A stretch of 50,126 bases of DNA from Ruminococcus sp. (lineage in GTDB: Bacteria > Bacillota > Clostridia > Oscillospirales > Ruminococcaceae), in contig JAFZRF010000002.1 of NCBI GenBank assembly GCA_017620025.1, positions 1 to 50,126 of the forward strand. The letters are read 5' to 3'. The position numbers and the translations under genes were made by a program. The notes under the pieces were generated by a model that did not search any database, was not told the origin of the DNA, and saw nothing but the letters and a program-made list of their open reading frames with translations. Below are positions 6,387 to 39,094 of this stretch, one piece after another; position 1 is the first letter of the stretch, and the number at the start of each line of letters is the position of its first letter.

Positions 6387-7433
6387 ATGAGCAGAAAATT
6401 AGCAAGTATTCAAAGAATATGGAAGATAGAGCCTATCGAAGGCGCTGACAGGATAGAGCTGGCTTATGTGCTTGGCTGGCAGTGCGTGGTTAACAAGGGA
6501 CAGTTCAAGCCTATGGACCTGGCTGTTTATTATGAGATAGACAGTTTTCTTCCCATACGTCCCGAGTACGAATTCATGAGGGCGTCGAGTTATAAGAACA
6601 CCGAGATCATGGGTGAAGGCTTCCGTCTGAAAACTCAGAAATTCCGCGGACAGGTATCGCAGGGACTTCTTCTGCCTGTCAGTCAGTTCCCGGAAATACC
6701 GGCTGATGCAGAACCCGGAGCAGATGTTACCATGATACTCGGAGTCCGCAAGTGGGAAACAGAGGAACGTGCAACTTCGGGAGGTACCGTCATAGGTGAT
6801 CTGCCGAGAAGCATCCCGAAAACTGATGAAACAAGAGTGCAGGCTGATCCCGGACTCATAAAGGAGTTTGCAGGACTGGAATACTACATCAGCACCAAAA
6901 TGGACGGCAGTTCCCATTCGATAAGCATAGACGAGGACGGTATCCACGTTACCGGTCATAACTACGAGTACAAGGACGACGGCAACAGCGGTTTCTACAA
7001 GCTCGTCAACGAGCGCGGCTATAAGGAGAAACTCAAGGCGTTCGCTGAAAAAGAAGGCTTGAAGGAGCTTACCGTACAGGGCGAGCTTTGCGCTCCGGGC
7101 ATACAGCAGAACCGCCTGAAGCTCAAAAGGCCGGAGTGGTATGTTTTTACCGTAATGGAGAACGGCAGGCGTGTCGGTCTTGACAGAATGCTTGAAGTAT
7201 GCAAGGAACTGGAGTTCACTACTGTACCGATAGAAGAGATCGATACCGATCTGCCAGCGAAATACCCGACAGTAGAGGCTCTGCTTGAACGAGCAGAAGG
7301 CAGCTACCCTAACGGCGGCAAAAAGGAGGGCATCGTTATACGTCCCACTGAGCCTGTCTTCAGCAGCAATATCGGTGCTGAACTGAGTATGAAGGTAGTA
7401 AGCAACAGGTATCTGCTGAAAAATGATGACTGA
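6387..7433 (+). CDS. RNA ligase of the DraRnl (Rnl5)-like family
   Basis: A 348-residue ATP-dependent RNA ligase. Residues 1-110 resemble the N-terminal OB-like module of Deinococcus RNA ligase (RIWKIEPIEGADRIELAYVL; later FRGQVSQGLLLP). The nucleotidyltransferase core follows: motif I STKMDGSS with Lys171 as the adenylated lysine, motif IV EGIVIRP, and motif V with SMKVVSNRYLLK at the C-terminus. The ATG at 6387 follows AAAGGAGGAG. The open frame extends back to 6150 but runs through tRNA-Phe and tRNA-Gln, so upstream starts are excluded. Family members seal 3'-OH/5'-phosphate nicks in RNA duplexes. The gene starts 36 nt after the tRNA-Gln(TTG) end with no visible terminator between, so it may be co-transcribed with the tRNAs and act in RNA repair. 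Confidence 0.88.
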   Translation: MSRKLASIQRIWKIEPIEGADRIELAYVLGWQCVVNKGQFKPMDLAVYYEIDSFLPIRPEYEFMRASSYKNTEIMGEGFRLKTQKFRGQVSQGLLLPVSQFPEIPADAEPGADVTMILGVRKWETEERATSGGTVIGDLPRSIPKTDETRVQADPGLIKEFAGLEYYISTKMDGSSHSISIDEDGIHVTGHNYEYKDDGNSGFYKLVNERGYKEKLKAFAEKEGLKELTVQGELCAPGIQQNRLKLKRPEWYVFTVMENGRRVGLDRMLEVCKELEFTTVPIEEIDTDLPAKYPTVEALLERAEGSYPNGGKKEGIVIRPTEPVFSSNIGAELSMKVVSNRYLLKNDD

Positions 7434-26117: not shown

Positions 26118-27620
26118 ATGAAGAATTATCGTATCCTGATGCTGACAACACTTATTATCTCGGGCTGTTCCATGGTCTATGAGCTGATAATAAGTGCTGT
26201 CAGTTCTTATCTTGTAGGCGATTCCACATTGCAGTATTCTGTCACCATAGGCCTTTATATGTTTGCGCTCGGCATAGGTTCCTTTCTTTCAAAATTCGTG
26301 AAGAAGGAGCTGTTCAGCAGCTTTGCCACAGTGGAGATATGTATAGGAGTCATCGGCGGAACGAGTTCGCTTATACTGTTTCTTGCAAACCTGTATATTG
26401 AATCCTACGACGCAGTGATGTACATTGAGATACTCCTGATCGGTACTCTTGCCGGACTTGAGATACCTCTTCTGACACGTATAATAGAGGAGGACAGGAA
26501 GGAATTGCGCCTTACGCTGTCGTCGATATTCTCCTTCGACTATATCGGAGGCCTGATAGGCGCTATCGCCTTTCCGATGCTGCTCCTGCCGCATCTCGGA
26601 TACTTTGCGACAGCCTTCCTTGCAGGCTCCTTCAACCTTATCTGTGCTGTTATTATCATCTTCAAATTCAGTGACAGGCTGAAAAAGAGCATGGTATTCC
26701 GCATAGTCTCGGTAGTCCTTCTCGTTCTTATGGCAGCGGGAATCATGTTCTCGGAGAATATAAGCCGAGTGATAGAAGGCGGCCTTTACCGTGACGATGT
26801 GATCCTGATCGAGCAGACGCCCTATCAGAAAATAGTCGTCACAAAGCATAAGGACGATCTCCGGCTCTATATCGACGGAAACTGCCAGTTCTCCTCTGCG
26901 GATGAATACCGCTATCACGAAGGACTTGTACATATTCCGATGCTCTATGCGGAGAAGCACGACAGGGTGCTGATACTCGGCGGCGGCGACGGGCTTGCAG
27001 TACGTGAGCTGCTCAAATACCCGGATGTCAGCGAGATAACGATGATCGACCTCGACAAGGGAATGACCGATCTTTGCAGCACTGACAGACAGATCTCAGC
27101 TATCAACGGCGGCTCCCTGAGCAGTGATAAGCTCACCATTAAGAATATGGACGCCTACGAATACCTGAAAGAATCGGATGATATCTACGACGTTATAATC
27201 GTGGATCTTCCCGACCCGAACAATGAGGCGCTGAACAAGCTTTACAGCAACATCTTCTACCGGCTGTGCAGTCAGCATCTGACTGATACCGGTGTGATGA
27301 ATGTGCAGTCAACGAGTCCTTACTATGCTCCGAAGGCTTTCTGGTGCATCAGCCGGACGATAGAGAGCGAGGGCATGGAGGTCATGCCGTATCACCTGCA
27401 GGTCCCTGCATTCGGCGACTGGGGATTCAATATGGCGAGCCGTACAGAACTGAGCATCAAGCATGAATTACTGTCTGATACGCGTTATCTTAAAGCTGAC
27501 AACATAGATTCGTTGTTCTGCTTCGGCAAGGATGAAACGGATGACAGCACGGATATAAACCAGCTTACCAAACCGGTGCTTATACAGTATTATAACGATG
27601 CTGTAAGGAACTGGGAATAA
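26118..27620 (+). CDS. Membrane-integrated spermidine-synthase-like protein
   Basis: A 500-residue protein. The N-terminal 220 residues contain about seven membrane helices. The C-terminal half (about 230-480) is a Rossmann-fold aminopropyltransferase/SAM-type domain: YQKIVVTKH, RLYIDGNCQFS, DEYRYHEGLVHIPM, LILGGGDGLAVRELLKY, IDLDKGM and VDLPDPNN. The DEYRYHE and GGGDG motifs match SpeE. The group fuses SpeE with a transporter-like membrane part. No S-adenosylmethionine decarboxylase gene is nearby, so the substrate may not be putrescine. It is the third gene of the DUF4178/DUF350 operon and ends before a strong bidirectional terminator. Confidence 0.87.
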   Translation: MKNYRILMLTTLIISGCSMVYELIISAVSSYLVGDSTLQYSVTIGLYMFALGIGSFLSKFVKKELFSSFATVEICIGVIGGTSSLILFLANLYIESYDAVMYIEILLIGTLAGLEIPLLTRIIEEDRKELRLTLSSIFSFDYIGGLIGAIAFPMLLLPHLGYFATAFLAGSFNLICAVIIIFKFSDRLKKSMVFRIVSVVLLVLMAAGIMFSENISRVIEGGLYRDDVILIEQTPYQKIVVTKHKDDLRLYIDGNCQFSSADEYRYHEGLVHIPMLYAEKHDRVLILGGGDGLAVRELLKYPDVSEITMIDLDKGMTDLCSTDRQISAINGGSLSSDKLTIKNMDAYEYLKESDDIYDVIIVDLPDPNNEALNKLYSNIFYRLCSQHLTDTGVMNVQSTSPYYAPKAFWCISRTIESEGMEVMPYHLQVPAFGDWGFNMASRTELSIKHELLSDTRYLKADNIDSLFCFGKDETDDSTDINQLTKPVLIQYYNDAVRNWE

Positions 27621-27656: not shown

Positions 27657-30011
27657 TTACTTGTTCTGATACTTGGCCTTATCCATCTCACGGATAGCTG
27701 CACGGCGTATCTTTCCGCTGCCTACGGTCTTGGGAAGCTCGGGAACGAACTCAATTACTCTCGGATACTTGTAAGGTGCAGTATGCTCCTTTACGTACTC
27801 CTTGATCTCTGTAACGAGTTCTTCGGAGGGTTCCTTGTCCTTGGTGAGAACGATGGTGGCCTTTACGACCTGTCCTCTGATCTCATCCGGTACGCCTGTA
27901 ACTGCACATTCAAGCACATAGGGGAGCTCCATGAGCACGCTCTCTATCTCGAAGGGTCCTATGCGGTAGCCGGAGGACTTGATAACATCGTCAACACGTC
28001 CGACATACCAGAAGTAGCCGTCCTCATCAACCCATGCGGTATCGCCTGTGTGGTAGTATCCGTCACGCCATGTCTCTGCGGTATTCTCCTCGTCGCCGAA
28101 GTAGCAGAGTGCAAGGCCGGGAACACCGTATCCGGGAGCCTTCTCGTCTTTCAGCTTTATGCAGATCTCACCGGTCTCGCCGACTCCTGCCGGAGTGCCG
28201 TCAGGGAGGAGGACCTGTACCTCATACTGCGGATTGGGCTTGCCCATGCTGCCGGGCTTGGGCTCCATGCCAACTACGTTTGCGATGGTGAGAGTTGTCT
28301 CGGTCTGACCGAAGCCCTCCATGAGCTTGATGCCGGTTGCCTTGTAGAACTGGTGGAATACCTCGGGGTTCAGTGCCTCGCCGGCGATGCAGGCGTATTT
28401 CAGCGATGACAGGTCATACTTGGAAAGATCCTCCTTGATGAAGAAACGGTACATTGTCGGAGGAGCGCAGAAGGAGGTGACATTGTACTTCTTGAACATC
28501 GGGAGTATATCGTCTGCGTGGAAACGGTCGAAGTCGTATACGAATACGGCAGCCTCACACATCCACTGGCCGTAGAGCTTGCCCCAGAGTGCCTTGCCCC
28601 AGCCGGTATCGGAGATAGTGAAGTGCAGGCCGTTCGGATTTGCGTTCTGCCAGTAGCGGGCGGTCACGTAGTGGCCGAGGGGGTACTGGTAGCTGTGCAG
28701 AACGAGCTTCGGGTTGCCTGATGTACCTGAGCTGAAGAATATCAGCATGGGATCTGTGCCACAGGGAGTATCGGCAGTGCGCTCGAAGTGAGTGCTGTAT
28801 GCAGTCAGCTCTGCGTTGAAATCATGCCAGCCCTCACGCTGTCCGTTCACAAGCACCTTTGTCTTAAGAGTGGGGGAGGAAGCGCAGGCCTTCTCTACTT
28901 CATCAGCTACCTCGCCGTCGGCAGTGCACACGATAGCTGATACCTCTGCCGAATTGAAGCGGTATACAAGGTCATGCTCCTTGAGCATATTGGAAGCCGG
29001 GATAACAAGTGCGCCGATGCGGTGAAGAGCGATTATGGAGAACCAGAACTGATAATGACGCTTGAGTATCAGCATTACACGGTCGCCCTTCTTGATGCCG
29101 AGAGACTTGAAGTAATTGGCTGTCTGACATGAATACTTCTTGATATCCTTGAAGGTGAAGCGGCGCTCGTTGTGTTCCGCGTCAACATAGATCATAGCGG
29201 TCTTGTCAGGACATTTCTCAGCCATTGCATCAACGATATCGTATGCGAAGTTGAACTTGTCCTGATCGGTAAAATGAACAGCGCTGAGCACGCCCTCTTC
29301 GTTGGTCTCGCACTTTACGAACTTCTCTGATACGGGATTGAGCAGGCCCGCCTTATCCACGTTTGTGAGAGCGTGATGTGCGATGTGCTCCTTGTATTCA
29401 GCCATACCTGCCTTGCCGTGAGGAGCCATTACGAAGGCGTAGATCTCGCAGTCCTCGCCGCCGAGTGCGACCTCGTCATGGGGGAGGGAGCTGTCGTAGT
29501 AGATCGAGTCGCCCTCGTGGAGTATCTCAGTATGTGAGCCGACTGTCATACGCAGTGTGCCCTTGAGGACGATATCCATTTCCTGGCCTGCGTGGCTTGC
29601 CATATGCATGGGCTGGTTGAATGCTTCTTCGGAGTAGGGGATAACTACATGGAAGGGCTCAACTGTCTTGTTCTTGAACTTGGATGCAAGACGGTTGTAG
29701 GCAAAGCCCTTTCTGCGGACTATCGGAACGCCCTCGCCCTTGCGTGTTACGGTATATCCGCTCAGCTCAGGGCTTTTGCCCTCCATGAGCTCTGTGATAT
29801 CAACATTGAATTTATTTGCACATTTATAGATAAAGGTGAAGCTGAAATCCTTCTCGCCGGATTCATACTTCTTGTAATCCTCAACGGAATAACCTGTAAT
29901 TGCAGCCATTTCCTCGATTGAAATACCAAGGTCCTCACGCAGACGTACGATTCGCTCTGCGACCTCTCTGATCCTGACTTCCGCATTCTGCAAATTTGTC
30001 ATTTCGCTCAT
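27657..30011 (-). CDS. XRE-cupin-acyl-CoA synthetase fusion (AMP-forming)
   Basis: A 784-residue three-part protein. Residues 12-75 are an XRE helix-turn-helix (SIEEMAAITGYSVEDYKKYESGE). Residues of about 120-195 are a cupin (HAGQEMDIVLKGTL, EGDSIYYDSSLPHDE). Residues of about 250-780 are a complete AMP-forming acyl-CoA synthetase: FFSSGTSGNPKLV (ATP/AMP loop), GFGQTETT, YHTGDTAW, DDVIKSSGYRIGP, and the C-terminal catalytic Lys in GSGKIRRA. The reaction is a carboxylic acid + ATP + CoA giving acyl-CoA + AMP + PPi. The substrate is not readable from sequence. A T-box leader that appears to read tRNA-Ile precedes it, which points to an acid used for isoleucine synthesis, 2-methylbutyrate being the best candidate (inference). 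AAAGGAGAA lies about 8 nt before the ATG. Confidence 0.9.
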   Translation of the reverse strand: MSEMTNLQNAEVRIREVAERIVRLREDLGISIEEMAAITGYSVEDYKKYESGEKDFSFTFIYKCANKFNVDITELMEGKSPELSGYTVTRKGEGVPIVRRKGFAYNRLASKFKNKTVEPFHVVIPYSEEAFNQPMHMASHAGQEMDIVLKGTLRMTVGSHTEILHEGDSIYYDSSLPHDEVALGGEDCEIYAFVMAPHGKAGMAEYKEHIAHHALTNVDKAGLLNPVSEKFVKCETNEEGVLSAVHFTDQDKFNFAYDIVDAMAEKCPDKTAMIYVDAEHNERRFTFKDIKKYSCQTANYFKSLGIKKGDRVMLILKRHYQFWFSIIALHRIGALVIPASNMLKEHDLVYRFNSAEVSAIVCTADGEVADEVEKACASSPTLKTKVLVNGQREGWHDFNAELTAYSTHFERTADTPCGTDPMLIFFSSGTSGNPKLVLHSYQYPLGHYVTARYWQNANPNGLHFTISDTGWGKALWGKLYGQWMCEAAVFVYDFDRFHADDILPMFKKYNVTSFCAPPTMYRFFIKEDLSKYDLSSLKYACIAGEALNPEVFHQFYKATGIKLMEGFGQTETTLTIANVVGMEPKPGSMGKPNPQYEVQVLLPDGTPAGVGETGEICIKLKDEKAPGYGVPGLALCYFGDEENTAETWRDGYYHTGDTAWVDEDGYFWYVGRVDDVIKSSGYRIGPFEIESVLMELPYVLECAVTGVPDEIRGQVVKATIVLTKDKEPSEELVTEIKEYVKEHTAPYKYPRVIEFVPELPKTVGSGKIRRAAIREMDKAKYQNK

Positions 30012-30031: not shown

Positions 30032-30079
30032 AAAAATAAAAAAGCCCGCCTCAAAGAAAAACGTTCTTTGAGACGAGCA
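30032..30079 (-). terminator. Intrinsic terminator of the T-box leader
   Basis: On the minus strand GCTCGTCTCAAAG pairs with CTTTGAGACGGGC (one G-U pair), followed by TTTTTTATTTTT. CTCAAA in its 5' arm (plus 30067-30072) is also the 3' partner of the antiterminator. Confidence 0.92.
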
Positions 30080-30307
30080 TCATTTACTGATTACCCGCGG
30101 TACCACTCAAATTGTGCCGCTATTGCGTAACACCACTTCAGACTCCGACAAGCCCTATTCATTAACGCAGACTCACGGGAACGCTTACTGCTAATTTCAG
30201 CATTCCGGCTCAGAAGGGATACACAGCATTGCTTATCACCGACTCACACCGACCGTCGGCTCTCTGCAGACATTGGCAATTCTCTGCTTGTCTTCCTCAC
30301 AGCTTAT
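30038..30307 (-). ncRNA. T-box riboswitch, predicted tRNA-Ile responsive (specifier AUC)
   Basis: Read on the minus strand. The T-box core UGGUACCGCGGGU lies at 30093-30105. TTTGAG just 5' of it (30106-30111) can pair with CTCAAA of the terminator arm to form the antiterminator, so the two structures are mutually exclusive. The antiterminator bulge UGGU complements a tRNA 3' end ACCA, that is discriminator A. Stem I starts with GCUGUGAGGAAG and closes with CUUCUGAGC, containing a GUGA/GA kink-turn. The apical part has the AGAGAGC and GGUGUGAG elements. By comparison with glyQS (specifier, one nt, five-bp stem, GAGC), the specifier is AUC, isoleucine. GUA or UAU in the same loop are weaker alternatives. 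Stem III is GGAAUGCU/AGCGUUCC. Confidence 0.88.
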
Positions 30308-30313
30308 GTTTGG

Positions 30314-30342
30314 ATTATATCATATCAAAATCGGTTTGTCAA
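30314..30342 (-). promoter_or_regulatory. Consensus promoter of the T-box transcript
   Basis: On the minus strand TTGACA (30337-30342), a 17-nt spacer and TATAAT (30314-30319). Transcription should start near 30307. Confidence 0.9.
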
Positions 30343-31333: not shown

Positions 31334-31464
31334 GGTAATATCAAAAAGAAGAACAGAGGTCTGTACTGCGGAAAGTCAGAAAGCTGCCTCTGCAGCATAG
31401 CTGCCGTGTGTCAGACACTCTGTTTCCGGCACAGACATCAATGATACGAACAGGAGGGATATCC

Positions 31465-34400
31465 ATGAAATCAAAAAAACTACTTGCAGCAGCTGCTGCC
31501 ATATGCATCGCAGCTGTCACATCCGTACCGGCAATTAACACAGGCATTCCCGCCGTTCCGGAGATAACGGCATCTGCGGCAGAAGCTGAGTACACTGTAG
31601 ACGGCCTGTCTTTTGACTGGTATTTCGATCAGGCAGTGCTTACCAAATGCAGCAAAGATGCAGAGGGAGAGATCGTCATCCCCTCAACGGTCGAAGGAGT
31701 ACCCGTAACATCAATAAGCTACGGCGCATTCAAGGGCTGCACGAAGATCACATCCGTTGTGATACCGGAAGGCGTGAACAGCATATATTCGGGGGCATTC
31801 AAAGGCTGTACTTCACTTACCGATGTAAGCCTGCCAGAAAGCCTTGAAAATGTTGCAGCCGATTCCTTTGAGGGAACACCCTGGTTCGAGGACCTTCAGA
31901 AGAATGATCCCATGTTCATAGTCGGCGGTGTACTTGTTGACGGTAAGAAATGCAGCGGAGAGATTGTCGTTCCCGATAATGTCAGGAGCATAGCAGACAA
32001 TGCCTTTGAGAACTGTTCGGGAATAACAAAGGTGACTCTCCCGGAAAGTCTCAAAGCGATAGGCTGTTATGCTTTTCATAAATGTGAAAACCTCACCGAG
32101 ATCAATCTGCCGAAAAAGCTTGAAAAGCTCGGTTCTGCGGCTTTCAAATACTGTACCTCCCTTGAGGAGATAACCGTTCCGGGTATGGTATGTGATTCCG
32201 GATCTGAGATCTTTTCGCACTCGGGGCTGAAAAAAGCAACTCTCGGGAACGGGTTGACTTCAGTGAATTACCATATGTTCACAAACTGTGAAGAACTCAC
32301 TTCTGTTACTCTCTCTGCTACTATAGAAGTGATCGACAGTAACGCTTTCCAGAACTGCAAAAAGCTGACAGGTATAAAGCTTCCGGAAGGAATGTTCCGT
32401 ATAAATGCATGTGCTTTTGACGGATGTGAGAGCCTTGAAAAGGTCGTGTTCCCCGATCATCTCGCCTGTATAGAAACAGAAGCCTTCAGTGACTGTTCCT
32501 CGCTTAAAGAGATAAGCATACAGGATGGCACCGACCTTTATGGAGATCGTATATTCTGTCGCTGTACTTCACTTGAATCGGTAAAGCTCCCTTCCGATCT
32601 TGAGTATATATATGAGGGTACATTTGAAGGATGCAAAGCTCTGAAATCGATCGCCATTCCCGGATCTGTTACCTATATCGGAGAGAGCGCATTCAAGGAG
32701 TGTACAGGGATTGAATCCGTTGAGCTTCCGGAGAAGCTTGAAAGGCTTCTTGAAGATGCCTTTGCAGACTGCACCTCACTTTCATCCGTTAAGCTTCCGT
32801 CTTCCCTTGACTATCTGGGCGCTCGTGCGTTCTATAATACACCATGGCTTGAAGAGAAGCTCAAAGAGGAGCCGGTTTTTGTATTAGCGGGAGTCGTTTC
32901 ATGCGTAAGCAATGACAAGAGCGATATTGTGATACCGGAAAATGCCAGAAGGATATCATCCGAAGCATTTGACGGCTGTGATAATATGACATCGGTGCAT
33001 ATCCCGGCAAGCATGGAATACATCTGCGACAGTGCCTTCGATAAGTGCAGCGCTCTTGAAGATGTTTACTACAGCGGCAGCGAGGCTCAGTGGAAGGCCG
33101 TGCTGATCTACGAATACGGTAACAAACCGCTGCTGAACGCAAAGATGCACTTCGGAGAAACAGTTATTCCCGAAGGCTCTTCTGTCAGGATAATGATTGA
33201 CGACATTCTCTTTGACCTGTACAGTGATCATGCCGAGGCGGCGGGTCTCAATGAGAGGTCAGAGATCACAGATCTTGTCATACCGTCTGAGGCAGAGGGC
33301 GTTCCTGTGACAGCTGTAAAGGACTCTGCATTTGAAGGTTTATGGGAAATTGAATCAGTGACAATACCGGACAGCGTGACTTATATCGGAGAAGCTGCAT
33401 TCAGCAACTGCAGTTCACTGAGTAATGTCAAGTTACCGGACAATGGTATATATATCGGATACAAAGCGTTTGCATGGACTGAATGGAGCAGGAGGGACGG
33501 GCTTCTGATCGTGAACGGCGTACTGATCGACGGAAGCAACAGCTATTTCGGCGAGACCATCCCTGACAAGGTCACTGTGATAGGAGACAATGCGTTCAGA
33601 AATGGCGGTATCGGCTATGTAGAGCTGCCAGACAGCGTCAAAAGGATAGGACACTATGCCTTTGCCGGCTGTCGGTCGCTGAGCAGCATCAATATCCCTG
33701 ACAGCGTGACGGAGATAGGAGACAGGGCTTTCAGCGGAACCGGCATCGGACTGATAACTGTGCCGGCCAGTATTACAAAGATGGGCAGCGGAGCGTTTGC
33801 TGATAATGAAAAACTCTCTTGCGCAGAGTTCCTTGAAGGCACGGAGAGCATAGGCGATGAGGCACTGAAGAACTGTGCGGCTCTCGAAATCATCGAGCTT
33901 CCGGACGGACTGAAACGCATCGGCAGACAGGCGCTCTACGGCTGCCGCAAGCTGAGAGAGGTCAGAATACCGGAAAGCGTGTCGGAGATAGACGAGGGGG
34001 CATTTGCGTATTGCAGGACGCTGACTTCTGTTACCATTCCCGACGGTGTGAAGAAGATAGAGGATTCCGTATTCGCAAGGTGCTACGGACTCAGTGAGGT
34101 ATATATACCTGCCGGCATCGAGTCGATCGGCAGCAGTGCTTTTGTCGACTGTGAGATGCTCACAGACGTATACTTCGGCGGTACGCAGGCGCAGTGGACG
34201 GCGCTGAAAAAAAACAGCAGGACAGCCGGCAATGCAGCTGTTTTCAGAGATGCGACGGTTCATTTCAATGCAGGAGAGTCACCGGTAACAGAAACGGTGT
34301 ACGGCGATGCAAACGAGGACGGAAAGATCACTGTATCCGATGCTGTGGCAGTGCTGCAGTATATTGCGGATTCTGAGAAGTACCCGCTGTCGGAGCAGGG

Positions 34401-34509
34401 ATACGAAAATGCCGACTGCGACGGAGAGCGCGGCATAACCGGAAGCGATGCCATAATGATACAGAAGTATGATGCGGGGGTAATAAAGCAATTCCCGGCG
34501 GAAGAATAA
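31465..34509 (+). CDS. Secreted BspA-type leucine-rich-repeat protein with C-terminal dockerin
   Basis: A 1014-residue protein starting 6 nt after AGGAGGG. A signal peptide ends near ASAAEAEY. The body consists of some 25-30 BspA-type (LRR_5) repeats of about 23 residues with the pattern IxxxAFxxCxxLxxVxLPxxLxxI, interrupted by islands such as WFEDLQKNDPMFIVGGVLVD and YYSGSEAQWKA. The final 70 residues are a two-repeat dockerin (GDANEDGKITVSDA, then DCDGERGITGSDA). BspA repeats mediate protein or surface binding in oral and gut bacteria. Attached to a cellulosome, it could be a structural or adhesion component rather than an enzyme. No catalytic motif is visible. Confidence 0.93.
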   Translation: MKSKKLLAAAAAICIAAVTSVPAINTGIPAVPEITASAAEAEYTVDGLSFDWYFDQAVLTKCSKDAEGEIVIPSTVEGVPVTSISYGAFKGCTKITSVVIPEGVNSIYSGAFKGCTSLTDVSLPESLENVAADSFEGTPWFEDLQKNDPMFIVGGVLVDGKKCSGEIVVPDNVRSIADNAFENCSGITKVTLPESLKAIGCYAFHKCENLTEINLPKKLEKLGSAAFKYCTSLEEITVPGMVCDSGSEIFSHSGLKKATLGNGLTSVNYHMFTNCEELTSVTLSATIEVIDSNAFQNCKKLTGIKLPEGMFRINACAFDGCESLEKVVFPDHLACIETEAFSDCSSLKEISIQDGTDLYGDRIFCRCTSLESVKLPSDLEYIYEGTFEGCKALKSIAIPGSVTYIGESAFKECTGIESVELPEKLERLLEDAFADCTSLSSVKLPSSLDYLGARAFYNTPWLEEKLKEEPVFVLAGVVSCVSNDKSDIVIPENARRISSEAFDGCDNMTSVHIPASMEYICDSAFDKCSALEDVYYSGSEAQWKAVLIYEYGNKPLLNAKMHFGETVIPEGSSVRIMIDDILFDLYSDHAEAAGLNERSEITDLVIPSEAEGVPVTAVKDSAFEGLWEIESVTIPDSVTYIGEAAFSNCSSLSNVKLPDNGIYIGYKAFAWTEWSRRDGLLIVNGVLIDGSNSYFGETIPDKVTVIGDNAFRNGGIGYVELPDSVKRIGHYAFAGCRSLSSINIPDSVTEIGDRAFSGTGIGLITVPASITKMGSGAFADNEKLSCAEFLEGTESIGDEALKNCAALEIIELPDGLKRIGRQALYGCRKLREVRIPESVSEIDEGAFAYCRTLTSVTIPDGVKKIEDSVFARCYGLSEVYIPAGIESIGSSAFVDCEMLTDVYFGGTQAQWTALKKNSRTAGNAAVFRDATVHFNAGESPVTETVYGDANEDGKITVSDAVAVLQYIADSEKYPLSEQGYENADCDGERGITGSDAIMIQKYDAGVIKQFPAEE

Positions 34510-37384: not shown

Positions 37385-39094
37385 TCATCCTATTCTTGTG
37401 ATTTCTGTATTGTAGATACTGAATTTCAGACTGTCGGTGCCGCCGAGCATGAAGCTGAGCACAGCCTCCCTGTCGTCCGTTTCTGCCGTGAATTCAGCAG
37501 AGTATGGAGCCTTGTCGCCTGAGCCGGTAACGGTATCGGAGAAGTATTCCTTTCCGTCGGCGGAAGCGAGCCTGACAGGTATCTCTTTGCCTGTATCAGC
37601 CGAAGCCGTGAAGCTTATGCGGTAGACACCGCCCTTTCTGAGCCTTACGGGCGAAAGTGTTGTAACTATGGAATCCTGTGAGCTTCCACCTGTAACAGTG
37701 GTCACATGGTAGGACTTGTCCCAGGGGTTGAGGTATTCGCTCATGTTGGCGGAGGCATCGGCAGCTGTTGCAAAGGTGCCGTCGCCTGCCACATTCAGCG
37801 ACATATCATTGTATTCTATGCCGAGCGCCCTGCATATCTCCGATGCTGCAAGGGCTGCATTCTTCCTCTGTGTGATCTCGGAGGGGTGCCAGTCGGAGCC
37901 TATGCCGTCCTCCGTATAGTTCTGAGTGGGGGAGAGGTAGGTAAATATCCTGTCGTGGTGGTATCTGGTGCTGAAACGGCTTACCGCCTCCTGTATGTAC
38001 GGATACATATCCTCGCATCCCATAATGCCGACTGTACATACTATAGCGGCTGATGGATAGTGCTCGTGCACGGCTGCAAGGAAATCCACATAGTCGCTGA
38101 TATATTCCTCGGAGCGTGTTGCCGGATCCTTTGAGACATAGCCGCTGTCATTGGTGCCGAGGTTTATGAATACGACATCGGGTTCTTCCGGGAACGTCCA
38201 TTCCGCCTTTATGCCTGTCCGTGTGCTTCCGTAAAGACTGTACAGATTCTGCACAAGGCTTCCGGAGTTCTTGGTTCCGTTTGAGGTATATCCCGAGGTC
38301 GTTCCGTATCCGCTGAAGCAGACAGCGCTGTAGTCAGCGTCAAGCAGCTCTGCGGTGAGGTAGGCGTATGACTTCATGAAATTCTCGGTAGAAGTCCTGA
38401 AGCTTTCATACTGATCCTTGCCCTCTACACCGTAGGCGCAGGTAATGGAATCGCCGATGAATTCGATCAGGAGATCCTTCTTCGGCAGCGGGGATACCGG
38501 TACAGGTACATCGGAGCAGACATTGATGCTCTTTACGCCGACGCATCCGTTGTTTGCCTCGGAGAGCTGTATAACCTTTACGGTCGCTGTTCGGCTCGAA
38601 TCGCCCGAGAAGAGCTCTACGGTCTTTTCCTTTTCGGATAGGAGCTCGTCGAGTATTATCTCGCCGTCAACTATAACGCCGTATCTCGGCTTGTTGACTC
38701 CGTTGTTCTGTGTGCCGTCGCCGACTATGGTGACTGATGCAGATTTTCCCGTAACGCTGAATTCTGCTGCACAGCCGCTCTGTTCAAGCCATGCAGCCGT
38801 ATCGTTAAGGAATACACGTCCGGTATGCTTTACGTACTCTGCCGTTGCAGGCAGTACGCTTTCGGTGAATTCTCCTGTTGACTGTAAGCCCCGGCGCATG
38901 AATACAAGGTCGAAGGCGTCGCAGACTCCGTCGCCGTTGACATCGGTGCTGACAGAGTCAGGTGCGCCGAGCAGAAAGCTGCTCAGTGACTCAAGTTCAC
39001 CGGCGGTGAAGCTGACTGCGGCAAAGGCAGTCTGTACAGTAACGGCAAGGGCAGCCGCAGCGGCAAAAACCGATGCAGTGATTCTCTTTTTCAT
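37385..39094 (-). CDS. CE2-type acetyl-xylan esterase (SGNH) with N-terminal dockerin-like module and C-terminal CBM-like domain
   Basis: A 569-residue secreted enzyme. A signal peptide ends near AFAAVS. Residues 30-75 are dockerin-like with only one canonical calcium loop (DVNGDGVCDAFD); the first repeat lacks its loop. A jelly-roll domain (about 85-195) and an SGNH esterase (about 205-430) follow as in family CE2: GDSITCAYG with the Ser nucleophile, LGTNDSGY, and DWHPSEITQ with the Asp/His pair. These enzymes remove acetyl groups from xylan or glucomannan. The last 110 residues form a CBM4/9-like beta-sandwich (LRKGGVYRISFTASAD). The gene has its own promoter and heads an operon with the membrane-anchored protein, cyclophilin and DUF4236. 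Confidence 0.88.
   Translation of the reverse strand: MKKRITASVFAAAAALAVTVQTAFAAVSFTAGELESLSSFLLGAPDSVSTDVNGDGVCDAFDLVFMRRGLQSTGEFTESVLPATAEYVKHTGRVFLNDTAAWLEQSGCAAEFSVTGKSASVTIVGDGTQNNGVNKPRYGVIVDGEIILDELLSEKEKTVELFSGDSSRTATVKVIQLSEANNGCVGVKSINVCSDVPVPVSPLPKKDLLIEFIGDSITCAYGVEGKDQYESFRTSTENFMKSYAYLTAELLDADYSAVCFSGYGTTSGYTSNGTKNSGSLVQNLYSLYGSTRTGIKAEWTFPEEPDVVFINLGTNDSGYVSKDPATRSEEYISDYVDFLAAVHEHYPSAAIVCTVGIMGCEDMYPYIQEAVSRFSTRYHHDRIFTYLSPTQNYTEDGIGSDWHPSEITQRKNAALAASEICRALGIEYNDMSLNVAGDGTFATAADASANMSEYLNPWDKSYHVTTVTGGSSQDSIVTTLSPVRLRKGGVYRISFTASADTGKEIPVRLASADGKEYFSDTVTGSGDKAPYSAEFTAETDDREAVLSFMLGGTDSLKFSIYNTEITRIG

Follow-up and report, generated by a model that had tools for sequence, protein, structure and literature searches.

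A tRNA-Ile-type T-box leader in front of an HTH-cupin-fused acyl-CoA synthetase in Ruminococcus, with a predicted role in isoleucine synthesis from 2-methylbutyrate

The locus described here lies in a stretch of 50,126 nucleotides (the window) from a Ruminococcus sp. assembly (GCA_017620025.1, contig JAFZRF010000002.1), where a T-box riboswitch (RF00230) precedes a gene for an acyl-CoA synthetase on the minus strand. The covariance match for the leader RNA (30066..30309) covers the whole model, positions 1-219, and scores 117.5 bits (E 1.9e-25) against a gathering score of 93; this match at 30309-30066 is the sole T-box above that score within the window. A consensus promoter lies upstream, with a -35 element TTGACA (30337..30342), a 17-nt spacer and a -10 element TATAAT (30314..30319). 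The leader is therefore a T-box, and the covariance search and promoter bear out the preliminary description, which had reported a complete T-box with a consensus promoter before an acyl-CoA synthetase gene.

The individual elements of the leader, all on the minus strand, can be assigned with the help of the RF00230 alignment. Stem I contains the conserved region AGAGAGCC (30258..30265), which we take to be the AG bulge, and the specifier triplet AUC (Ile; 30218..30220), whose position is also indicated by related leaders. The T-box core TTGAGTGGTACCGCGGGT lies at 30110-30093, and an alternative terminator/antiterminator pair with a UGGN bulge is present, as in the Ile class of this riboswitch. 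The antiterminator (30066..30111), with the core TTGAGTGGTACCGCGG and a UGGU bulge, folds at -12.9 kcal/mol, and the intrinsic terminator that competes with it (30038..30078) folds at -22.9 kcal/mol and ends in a T-run, each element having been folded separately as RNA. Thus, the alternative structures and the UGGU bulge claimed beforehand could both be located. An AAGGAG ribosome site (30026-30018) then leads to the ATG at 30011. Among 12 sister leaders from 6 loci, 5 pass 93 bits and the other 7 reach 65-92 bits, at E values of 6.6e-12 or better. A consensus fold of related synthetase leaders (82 of 83 aligned, columns of more than half gaps dropped) has 50 pairs, of which 35 show compensatory changes, and folds at -42.3 kcal/mol compared with a mean of -0.3 kcal/mol in 20 column shuffles, which serve as a weak control.

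The gene behind this leader (27657..30011, minus strand) encodes an HTH-cupin-acyl-CoA synthetase fusion of 784 aa, predicted from its domains and from its closest relative of solved structure to be a 2-methylbutyrate--CoA ligase. Domain matches place HTH_19/HTH_3 at aa 19-79 (29775..29957), Cupin_2 at aa 138-192 (29436..29600), AMP-binding at aa 263-619 (28155..29225) and AMP-binding_C at aa 688-762 (27726..27950), all on the minus strand. The earlier assignment as an acyl-CoA synthetase is thus correct, but the enzyme is not the plain synthetase that had been described, since the N-terminal HTH and cupin domains had been missed. The N-terminal 241 aa gave no match among solved structures up to E 0.01. 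The gene stands alone, because the long reading frame that comes next downstream (26118-27620, plus strand) is convergent with it. Among named genomes, its nearest relatives (about 85-92%) belong to Ruminococcus flavefaciens and Ruminococcus sp., all of them rumen MAGs except for one strain. Also, 82 phage records match the synthetase, none at 60% identity or more among the matches listed; one unannotated faecal record of 6.5 kb spans 96% of it at 49% (best 5 of the 82 matches).

Clues to the substrate come from the best solved relative, the Macs protein of Methanosarcina acetivorans (PDB 3ETC), which matches aa 243-779 of the window enzyme with 683 bits (runner-up, 363 bits). The window enzyme differs from Macs in being HTH-cupin-fused, in lying behind a T-box and in having an activity that is predicted. 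The motif EGFGQTET, at residue 565 of the window protein, is the same in 3ETC, and its glycine may correspond to the Trp416 site of acetyl-CoA synthetase. That site is a glycine in medium-chain enzymes, according to the available portion of PMC10455477. The same portion reports 2-methylbutyrate as the preferred acid of MacsMa (3ETC), one that the enzyme carries through to the thioester, and Trp259 as critical for substrate binding. When Trp259 is located through that paper's YHTGD numbering (431-435), its equivalent in the 3ETC alignment is W476 of the window protein, the final residue of a GWGKxxW motif. The window enzyme is thereby predicted to activate 2-methylbutyrate. Its best NCBIfam match is the acyl-CoA synthetase MbcS (NF047394), yet the score of 454.5 bits lies under the equivalog cut-off of 850, and the MbcS identity was therefore not assigned.

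T-box RNAs respond to the charging state of a tRNA, and identifying that tRNA depends on the correct reading of the specifier. Related leaders that contain a core were compiled from the genus and from named genomes, two sets that may overlap, giving 77 leaders (of the 80 named loci, 21 have no core and are not included). Of these 77, 74 read AUC, 72 of them by script and 2 where AUC ranked as the second candidate. The other three could not be read: L041 and L094 are cut at contig ends and L042 has no specifier region. An orthologous leader with a non-AUC specifier, which the preliminary description had named as evidence against its own isoleucine reading, was thus sought and not encountered in this set, and the AUC call stands. 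The bases around AUC vary between leaders (TATC, CATC or AATC before; A, C, G or U after), so that only AUC is retained as the specifier. Readings displaced by one base in either direction, UAU (Tyr) and UCC, were rejected because relatives with CAUCA or AAUCA break them while AUC stays constant. The base 3' of a T-box specifier is usually a purine, and A directly follows AUC in 34 of 55 aligned AUC leaders; in the window leader this base is C.

The specifier caller agreed with NCBIfam gene names in 10 of 10 controls, which comprised two ileS (AUC), four valS (GUA or GUC) and one leuA (CUC) leader, and one leader each for O-acetylhomoserine sulfhydrylase (AUG), ilvE (AUC) and a branched-chain amino acid carrier (AUC). 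All six aminoacyl-tRNA synthetase genes scanned were called correctly. Beyond the NCBIfam-scanned loci, the labels valS, ileS, leuA and metY rest on motifs recognised by eye, and 2 of 11 valS-labelled leaders gave no specifier call. A cognate tRNA-Ile(GAU) with discriminator A is not among the tRNAs from the 23 loci read (of 30 loci with 41 matches), nor among the five of the window, in a source genome that is 76% complete. Overall, the window leader is predicted to be a transcriptional T-box that reads tRNA-Ile. The leader in an R. flavefaciens MAG that has no specifier region (L042:2692-2893) reflects either a deletion or an assembly fault.

Leaders of this family also occur elsewhere in the order. 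The genomes searched for the core TTGAGTGGTACCGCG numbered 247, the source genome included; 83 have it, and 135 cores were read. An exact search for these 15 bases misses variants, such that one genome with an Ile T-box synthetase (G051, L157) is counted as without, and of the 135 cores at least one, L266, resembles a chance match inside a coding stretch. Eighty-three cores, in 61 genomes, precede the HTH-cupin synthetase, and their specifiers (79 called by script and 4 by eye) fall into two types only: 56 AUC for Ile, and 25 GUA plus 2 GUC for Val. The usual targets of T-boxes are genes for aminoacyl-tRNA synthetases, transporters or classical biosynthetic enzymes, whereas the target here is an acyl-CoA synthetase, and the sister leaders on paralogous synthetases read Val rather than Ile. 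In a tree of 113 proteins made by a quick method, with two truncated Ile-type proteins (<600 aa) left out, the 28 Val-type enzymes (L116 and 27 from the 247 genomes) all group in a single clade, nested among the Ile types, that has a support of 100. Where the two genes lie in tandem, the Ile-type gene is ahead of the Val-type gene in 18 of 18 pairs, with cores 2.6-2.7 kb apart.

The two types of enzyme also differ at one position. Residue 472 (codon at 28596..28598, minus strand, in the window gene) is Gly in all 65 Ile-type and Ala in all 28 Val-type enzymes, and it is the sole type-separating alignment column that is invariant in both types. This residue sits in the motif GW[G/A]KxxW, whose final Trp aligns with Trp259 of MacsMa, and 3ETC itself carries Gly in this column. 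Residue 472 would thus lie near the acyl pocket, a placement based on the 3ETC alignment and the paper's numbering. A change from Gly to Ala adds one methyl group, and isobutyrate has one carbon fewer than 2-methylbutyrate; the Gly472Ala change would fit the use of isobutyrate instead of 2-methylbutyrate. Nevertheless, a single fixed difference on a long branch is no proof of a substrate switch. Gly472 is also present in 13 of 13 paralogues treated as being without a T-box, and Ala is also seen here in some split synthetases that fall outside the Val clade (3 of 7, with 3 of the 7 not read). One paralogue type, about 62% identical (G000:C29:6406-8709 and orthologues), is mostly without a T-box core in the genus, yet has Gly472. 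An AUC T-box nonetheless accompanies this paralogue type in G010 (L028) and in one G006 copy (L134).

The gene context of the tandem relatives provides additional hints regarding the remainder of the pathway. Stretches downstream of Val-type genes could be inspected at 20 of 27 loci, with L152 counted separately, and VorB-, VorA- and VorC-like genes plus an ATPase gene are present in 18 of these 20 (G114 and G199 being without Vor-like genes), while an IlvE-like gene is present in 15. Seventeen of the 20 stretches belong to tandem pairs headed by an Ile type, and Vor-like genes are found in all 17. The Vor and IlvE names rely on Pfam matches (POR_N, PFOR_II, TPP_enzyme_C, POR, Aminotran_4) and on similarity to those proteins. 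In 52 short control loci, where the T-box precedes some other gene, there were no Vor-like genes, one IlvE-like gene and three TIM-barrel-AMP-binding genes, which is a weak control because these loci are only about 3 kb long. VorB-like genes occur in 1 of 80 named loci (mostly Ile-type or without a T-box, flanks of at most 3 kb), and adjacency to Vor is therefore a trait of the tandem clusters and not of lone Ile-type genes. The Vor-like and Ior operons of the source genome lie on other contigs with no T-box core beside them. The 2-oxoacid:ferredoxin oxidoreductase cluster, mostly with an aminotransferase, by the tandem relatives would complete the route from an activated branched acid to an amino acid.

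Some clusters carry further genes or other arrangements. At L151 the order is Ile-type gene, ATPase, VorB-like, VorA-like, IlvE-like, a Leu T-box (its CUC specifier read by eye), a LeuA-like gene and a gene for a TIM-barrel-AMP-binding protein; at L152 it is Leu T-box, LeuA-like, a similar TIM-barrel gene, Ile-type, Val-type, IlvE-like, ATPase and Vor-like genes. In L153 and L155, an unfused HTH-cupin gene and a synthetase gene lie beside Vor-like genes, and in L156 such unfused genes lie beside a similar ATPase gene with an oxidoreductase-family match. The fusion of a TIM barrel (AP_endonuc_2) with an AMP-binding domain occurs behind a Leu (CUC) T-box or after a leuA-like gene with a Leu T-box (L284, L285 and L288; L042:6967-7217 with the gene at 7362; L151:11857-14000; L152:3891-6356), its domains having been identified by Pfam on the L151 copy, and it is a candidate isovalerate--CoA ligase for leucine. 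Also, the synthetase has as its neighbour in 11 loci (e.g., L042:5352-6794) a protein of 480 aa that contains an ACT region and matches metallo-beta-lactamase at a borderline level; this protein is present in 6 of 60 relatives and gave no match in the source genome. At another locus (L169, G000:C54), an indolepyruvate-type oxidoreductase adjoins a gene named by eye as phenylacetate--CoA ligase-like, a pair that possibly represents a parallel route for phenylalanine.

If the synthetase serves a substitute route to isoleucine, genomes that carry it might be expected to lack the classical genes. Gene content was compared in 246 of the 247 genomes, the source genome (only 76% complete) being left out. 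A match to ilvA is present in 5 of 54 genomes with an Ile-type T-box synthetase versus 110 of 192 without (p 5e-11), and ilvC is present in 11 of 54 versus 129 of 192 (p 9e-10); for the Val-type synthetase, ilvC is present in 1 of 27 genomes with the gene versus 139 of 219 without (p 8e-10). When stratified by family, these p values become 2e-7, 1e-6 and 2e-7, respectively, and the ilvA association collapsed to 134 genera has a p of 2e-7. For cimA there is no association with the Ile-type synthetase (14 of 54 versus 51 of 192, p 1). One of the 115 ilvA matches (G043) and four of the 65 cimA matches, all fragments (G253, G076, G105, G144), fall below the cut-off. Within the genus, where relatedness is not removed, ilvA is found in 3 of 17 genomes with the element versus 14 of 17 without, and ilvC in 5 of 17 versus 16 of 17; 34 of 36 genomes were usable, G003 and G026 having been left out for too little upstream sequence. 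A set of 24 genomes from 24 families points weakly in the same direction (p 0.13 for ilvA, 0.08 for ilvC and 0.009 for ilvA or cimA). In the genus, the genomes G008, G019 and G035, given as 98-99% complete, carry the element and show no match to ilvA or ilvC above the cut-offs.

The element does not always mark a complete loss of isoleucine synthesis. Nineteen of the 54 genomes with the Ile-type synthetase have ilvA or cimA, and the notion of invariable loss was ruled out by the 8 that keep ilvC plus ilvA or cimA, together with the lack of association for cimA. Furthermore, ilvA itself lies behind an AUC leader with the same core in 7 of 10 ilvA leaders, from loci that agree with the ilvA places found in the gene search. 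The other three (L203, L223, L232) have a CUC (Leu) specifier, and thus the specifier does not always fit the amino acid expected from the target gene. AUC leaders of the same type are found on ilvA in 7 genomes that keep this route and on the putative acid-activating enzyme mostly where ilvA is missing, a distribution that suggests T-boxes follow the replacement of a whole pathway.

An uncharged cognate tRNA stabilises the antiterminator of a T-box and permits transcription into the gene, whereas a charged tRNA does not. At the window locus, uncharged tRNA-Ile would accordingly let transcription enter the synthetase gene, and charged tRNA-Ile would not. The synthetase would convert 2-methylbutyrate to 2-methylbutyryl-CoA, a VOR/IOR-type ferredoxin oxidoreductase would form 3-methyl-2-oxopentanoate from it by reductive carboxylation, and a branched-chain aminotransferase would then yield isoleucine, a sequence that would stand in for the route from threonine. 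A duplication of the module in relatives appears to have given a daughter clade with a Val T-box (GUA or GUC) and a Gly-to-Ala change near the presumed acyl pocket, which would fit isobutyrate and valine, so that the specifier would name the acid. We regard it as quite probable that a tRNA-Ile T-box gates a 2-methylbutyrate-activating enzyme for isoleucine synthesis and that the Val-type duplicate matches isobutyrate and valine. The gate on isoleucine synthesis from 2-methylbutyrate was already proposed in the preliminary description, from which the Val and Leu counterparts were not visible, and the proposal gains support from the AUC leaders, the closeness to 3ETC, the tandem Vor clusters and the fact that ilvA and ketol-acid reductoisomerase are mostly missing.

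A broader version of this reading is conceivable, although we hold it tentatively and at somewhat less than even chances. Ile, Val and Leu T-boxes might each gate a dedicated acid-activating enzyme, for 2-methylbutyrate, isobutyrate and isovalerate, respectively, the last being the separate TIM-barrel-AMP-binding fusion with its CUC leader. The tRNA codon of each leader would therefore name the acid used, one Gly-to-Ala change would have gone along with the switch from Ile to Val, and the fused HTH-cupin region might act as an additional, second sensor at the protein level.

Other functions for the enzyme must be weighed against the proposed activation of 2-methylbutyrate for isoleucine. It could instead activate propionate, with propionyl-CoA being carboxylated to 2-oxobutyrate and passed to the ordinary IlvBCD route. 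Such a route would likewise replace ilvA and cimA, and of the 11 genomes with the Ile-type synthetase that keep ilvC, 3 are without ilvA or cimA (G049, G232, G244). However, 2-oxobutyrate would be a dead end in the 43 of 54 genomes that have no ilvC match, and MacsMa, the best solved relative, favours 2-methylbutyrate and carries its activation through to the thioester (PMC10455477, available portion), which makes the use of propionate unlikely. It is also quite unlikely that the enzyme chiefly supplies 2-methylbutyryl-CoA for anteiso branched-chain fatty acids, with the T-box being merely a proxy for isoleucine status. MbcS has a branched-acid role and is the top NCBIfam model (454 bits, below the cut-off of 850), but the location of tandem pairs beside Vor- and IlvE-like genes, the missing ilvA and ilvC and the matched Val copies indicate amino acid synthesis, and the two uses of 2-methylbutyryl-CoA are not exclusive. 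Finally, that the leader is a remnant or its specifier misread, such that tRNA-Ile does not control the gene, is highly improbable: the C after the window specifier and the L042 leader without a specifier region are outweighed by AUC in 74 of 77 leaders despite varying flanks, A after AUC in 34 of 55, compensatory changes in 35 of 50 pairs and correct calls for all 6 aminoacyl-tRNA synthetase genes scanned.

Fibre digesters of the rumen require branched short-chain acids. An Ile T-box on a branched-acid enzyme would help to explain this need among fibre-digesting rumen bacteria. In the available portion of PMC7356843, 2-methylbutyrate and isobutyrate are described as the precursors of Ile and Val, respectively, in rumen fermentation, and mixed isoacids are marketed as a feed additive (PMC10311502, likewise in part). 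The chemistry and ecology predicted here resemble the formation of isoleucine from 2-methylbutyrate in the rumen (Robinson and Allison 1969, as cited in PMC7356843); that citation names no gene or regulator for the route, whereas a gene and a leader are proposed here. In the literature searched, in part as excerpts, no assignment of a gene and its control to the rumen need for branched acids was found.

The T-box is of a standard kind and the enzyme is Macs-type; what appears to be new is their pairing and the specifier-matched duplication. Our literature search found no T-box paired with an acyl-CoA synthetase, a CoA ligase, 2-methylbutyrate or reductive carboxylation, and no report of specifier-matched duplication of T-box synthetases, although earlier mention of either is possible; isobutyrate was not among the matches listed. 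In the available main text of TBDB (PMC7778990) and of a T-box survey (PMC2494555) the term "CoA" does not appear, nor do "CoA synthetase" and "CoA ligase" in the available text of another survey (PMC3766115). If the leader RNA tells which amino acid the enzyme serves, the substrates of dozens of unassigned acyl-CoA synthetases would become testable predictions, down to one residue.

Several other observations were made in the course of this analysis. A T-box with a UAC (Tyr)-like specifier (L002, G000:C10:53105-53316) lies before an ORF resembling a membrane protein, with a tyrosyl-tRNA-synthetase-like ORF next (both by eye). T-boxes of the same class with a GUC (Val) specifier precede DUF1015-like and TIM-barrel-like proteins at L300 and L238, again as judged by eye. 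The window itself also encodes a leucine-rich-repeat protein with a dockerin (31408-34509) and a carbohydrate esterase family 2-like protein (37385-39094), which we presume to be proteins of the sort found in cellulosome-making ruminococci.
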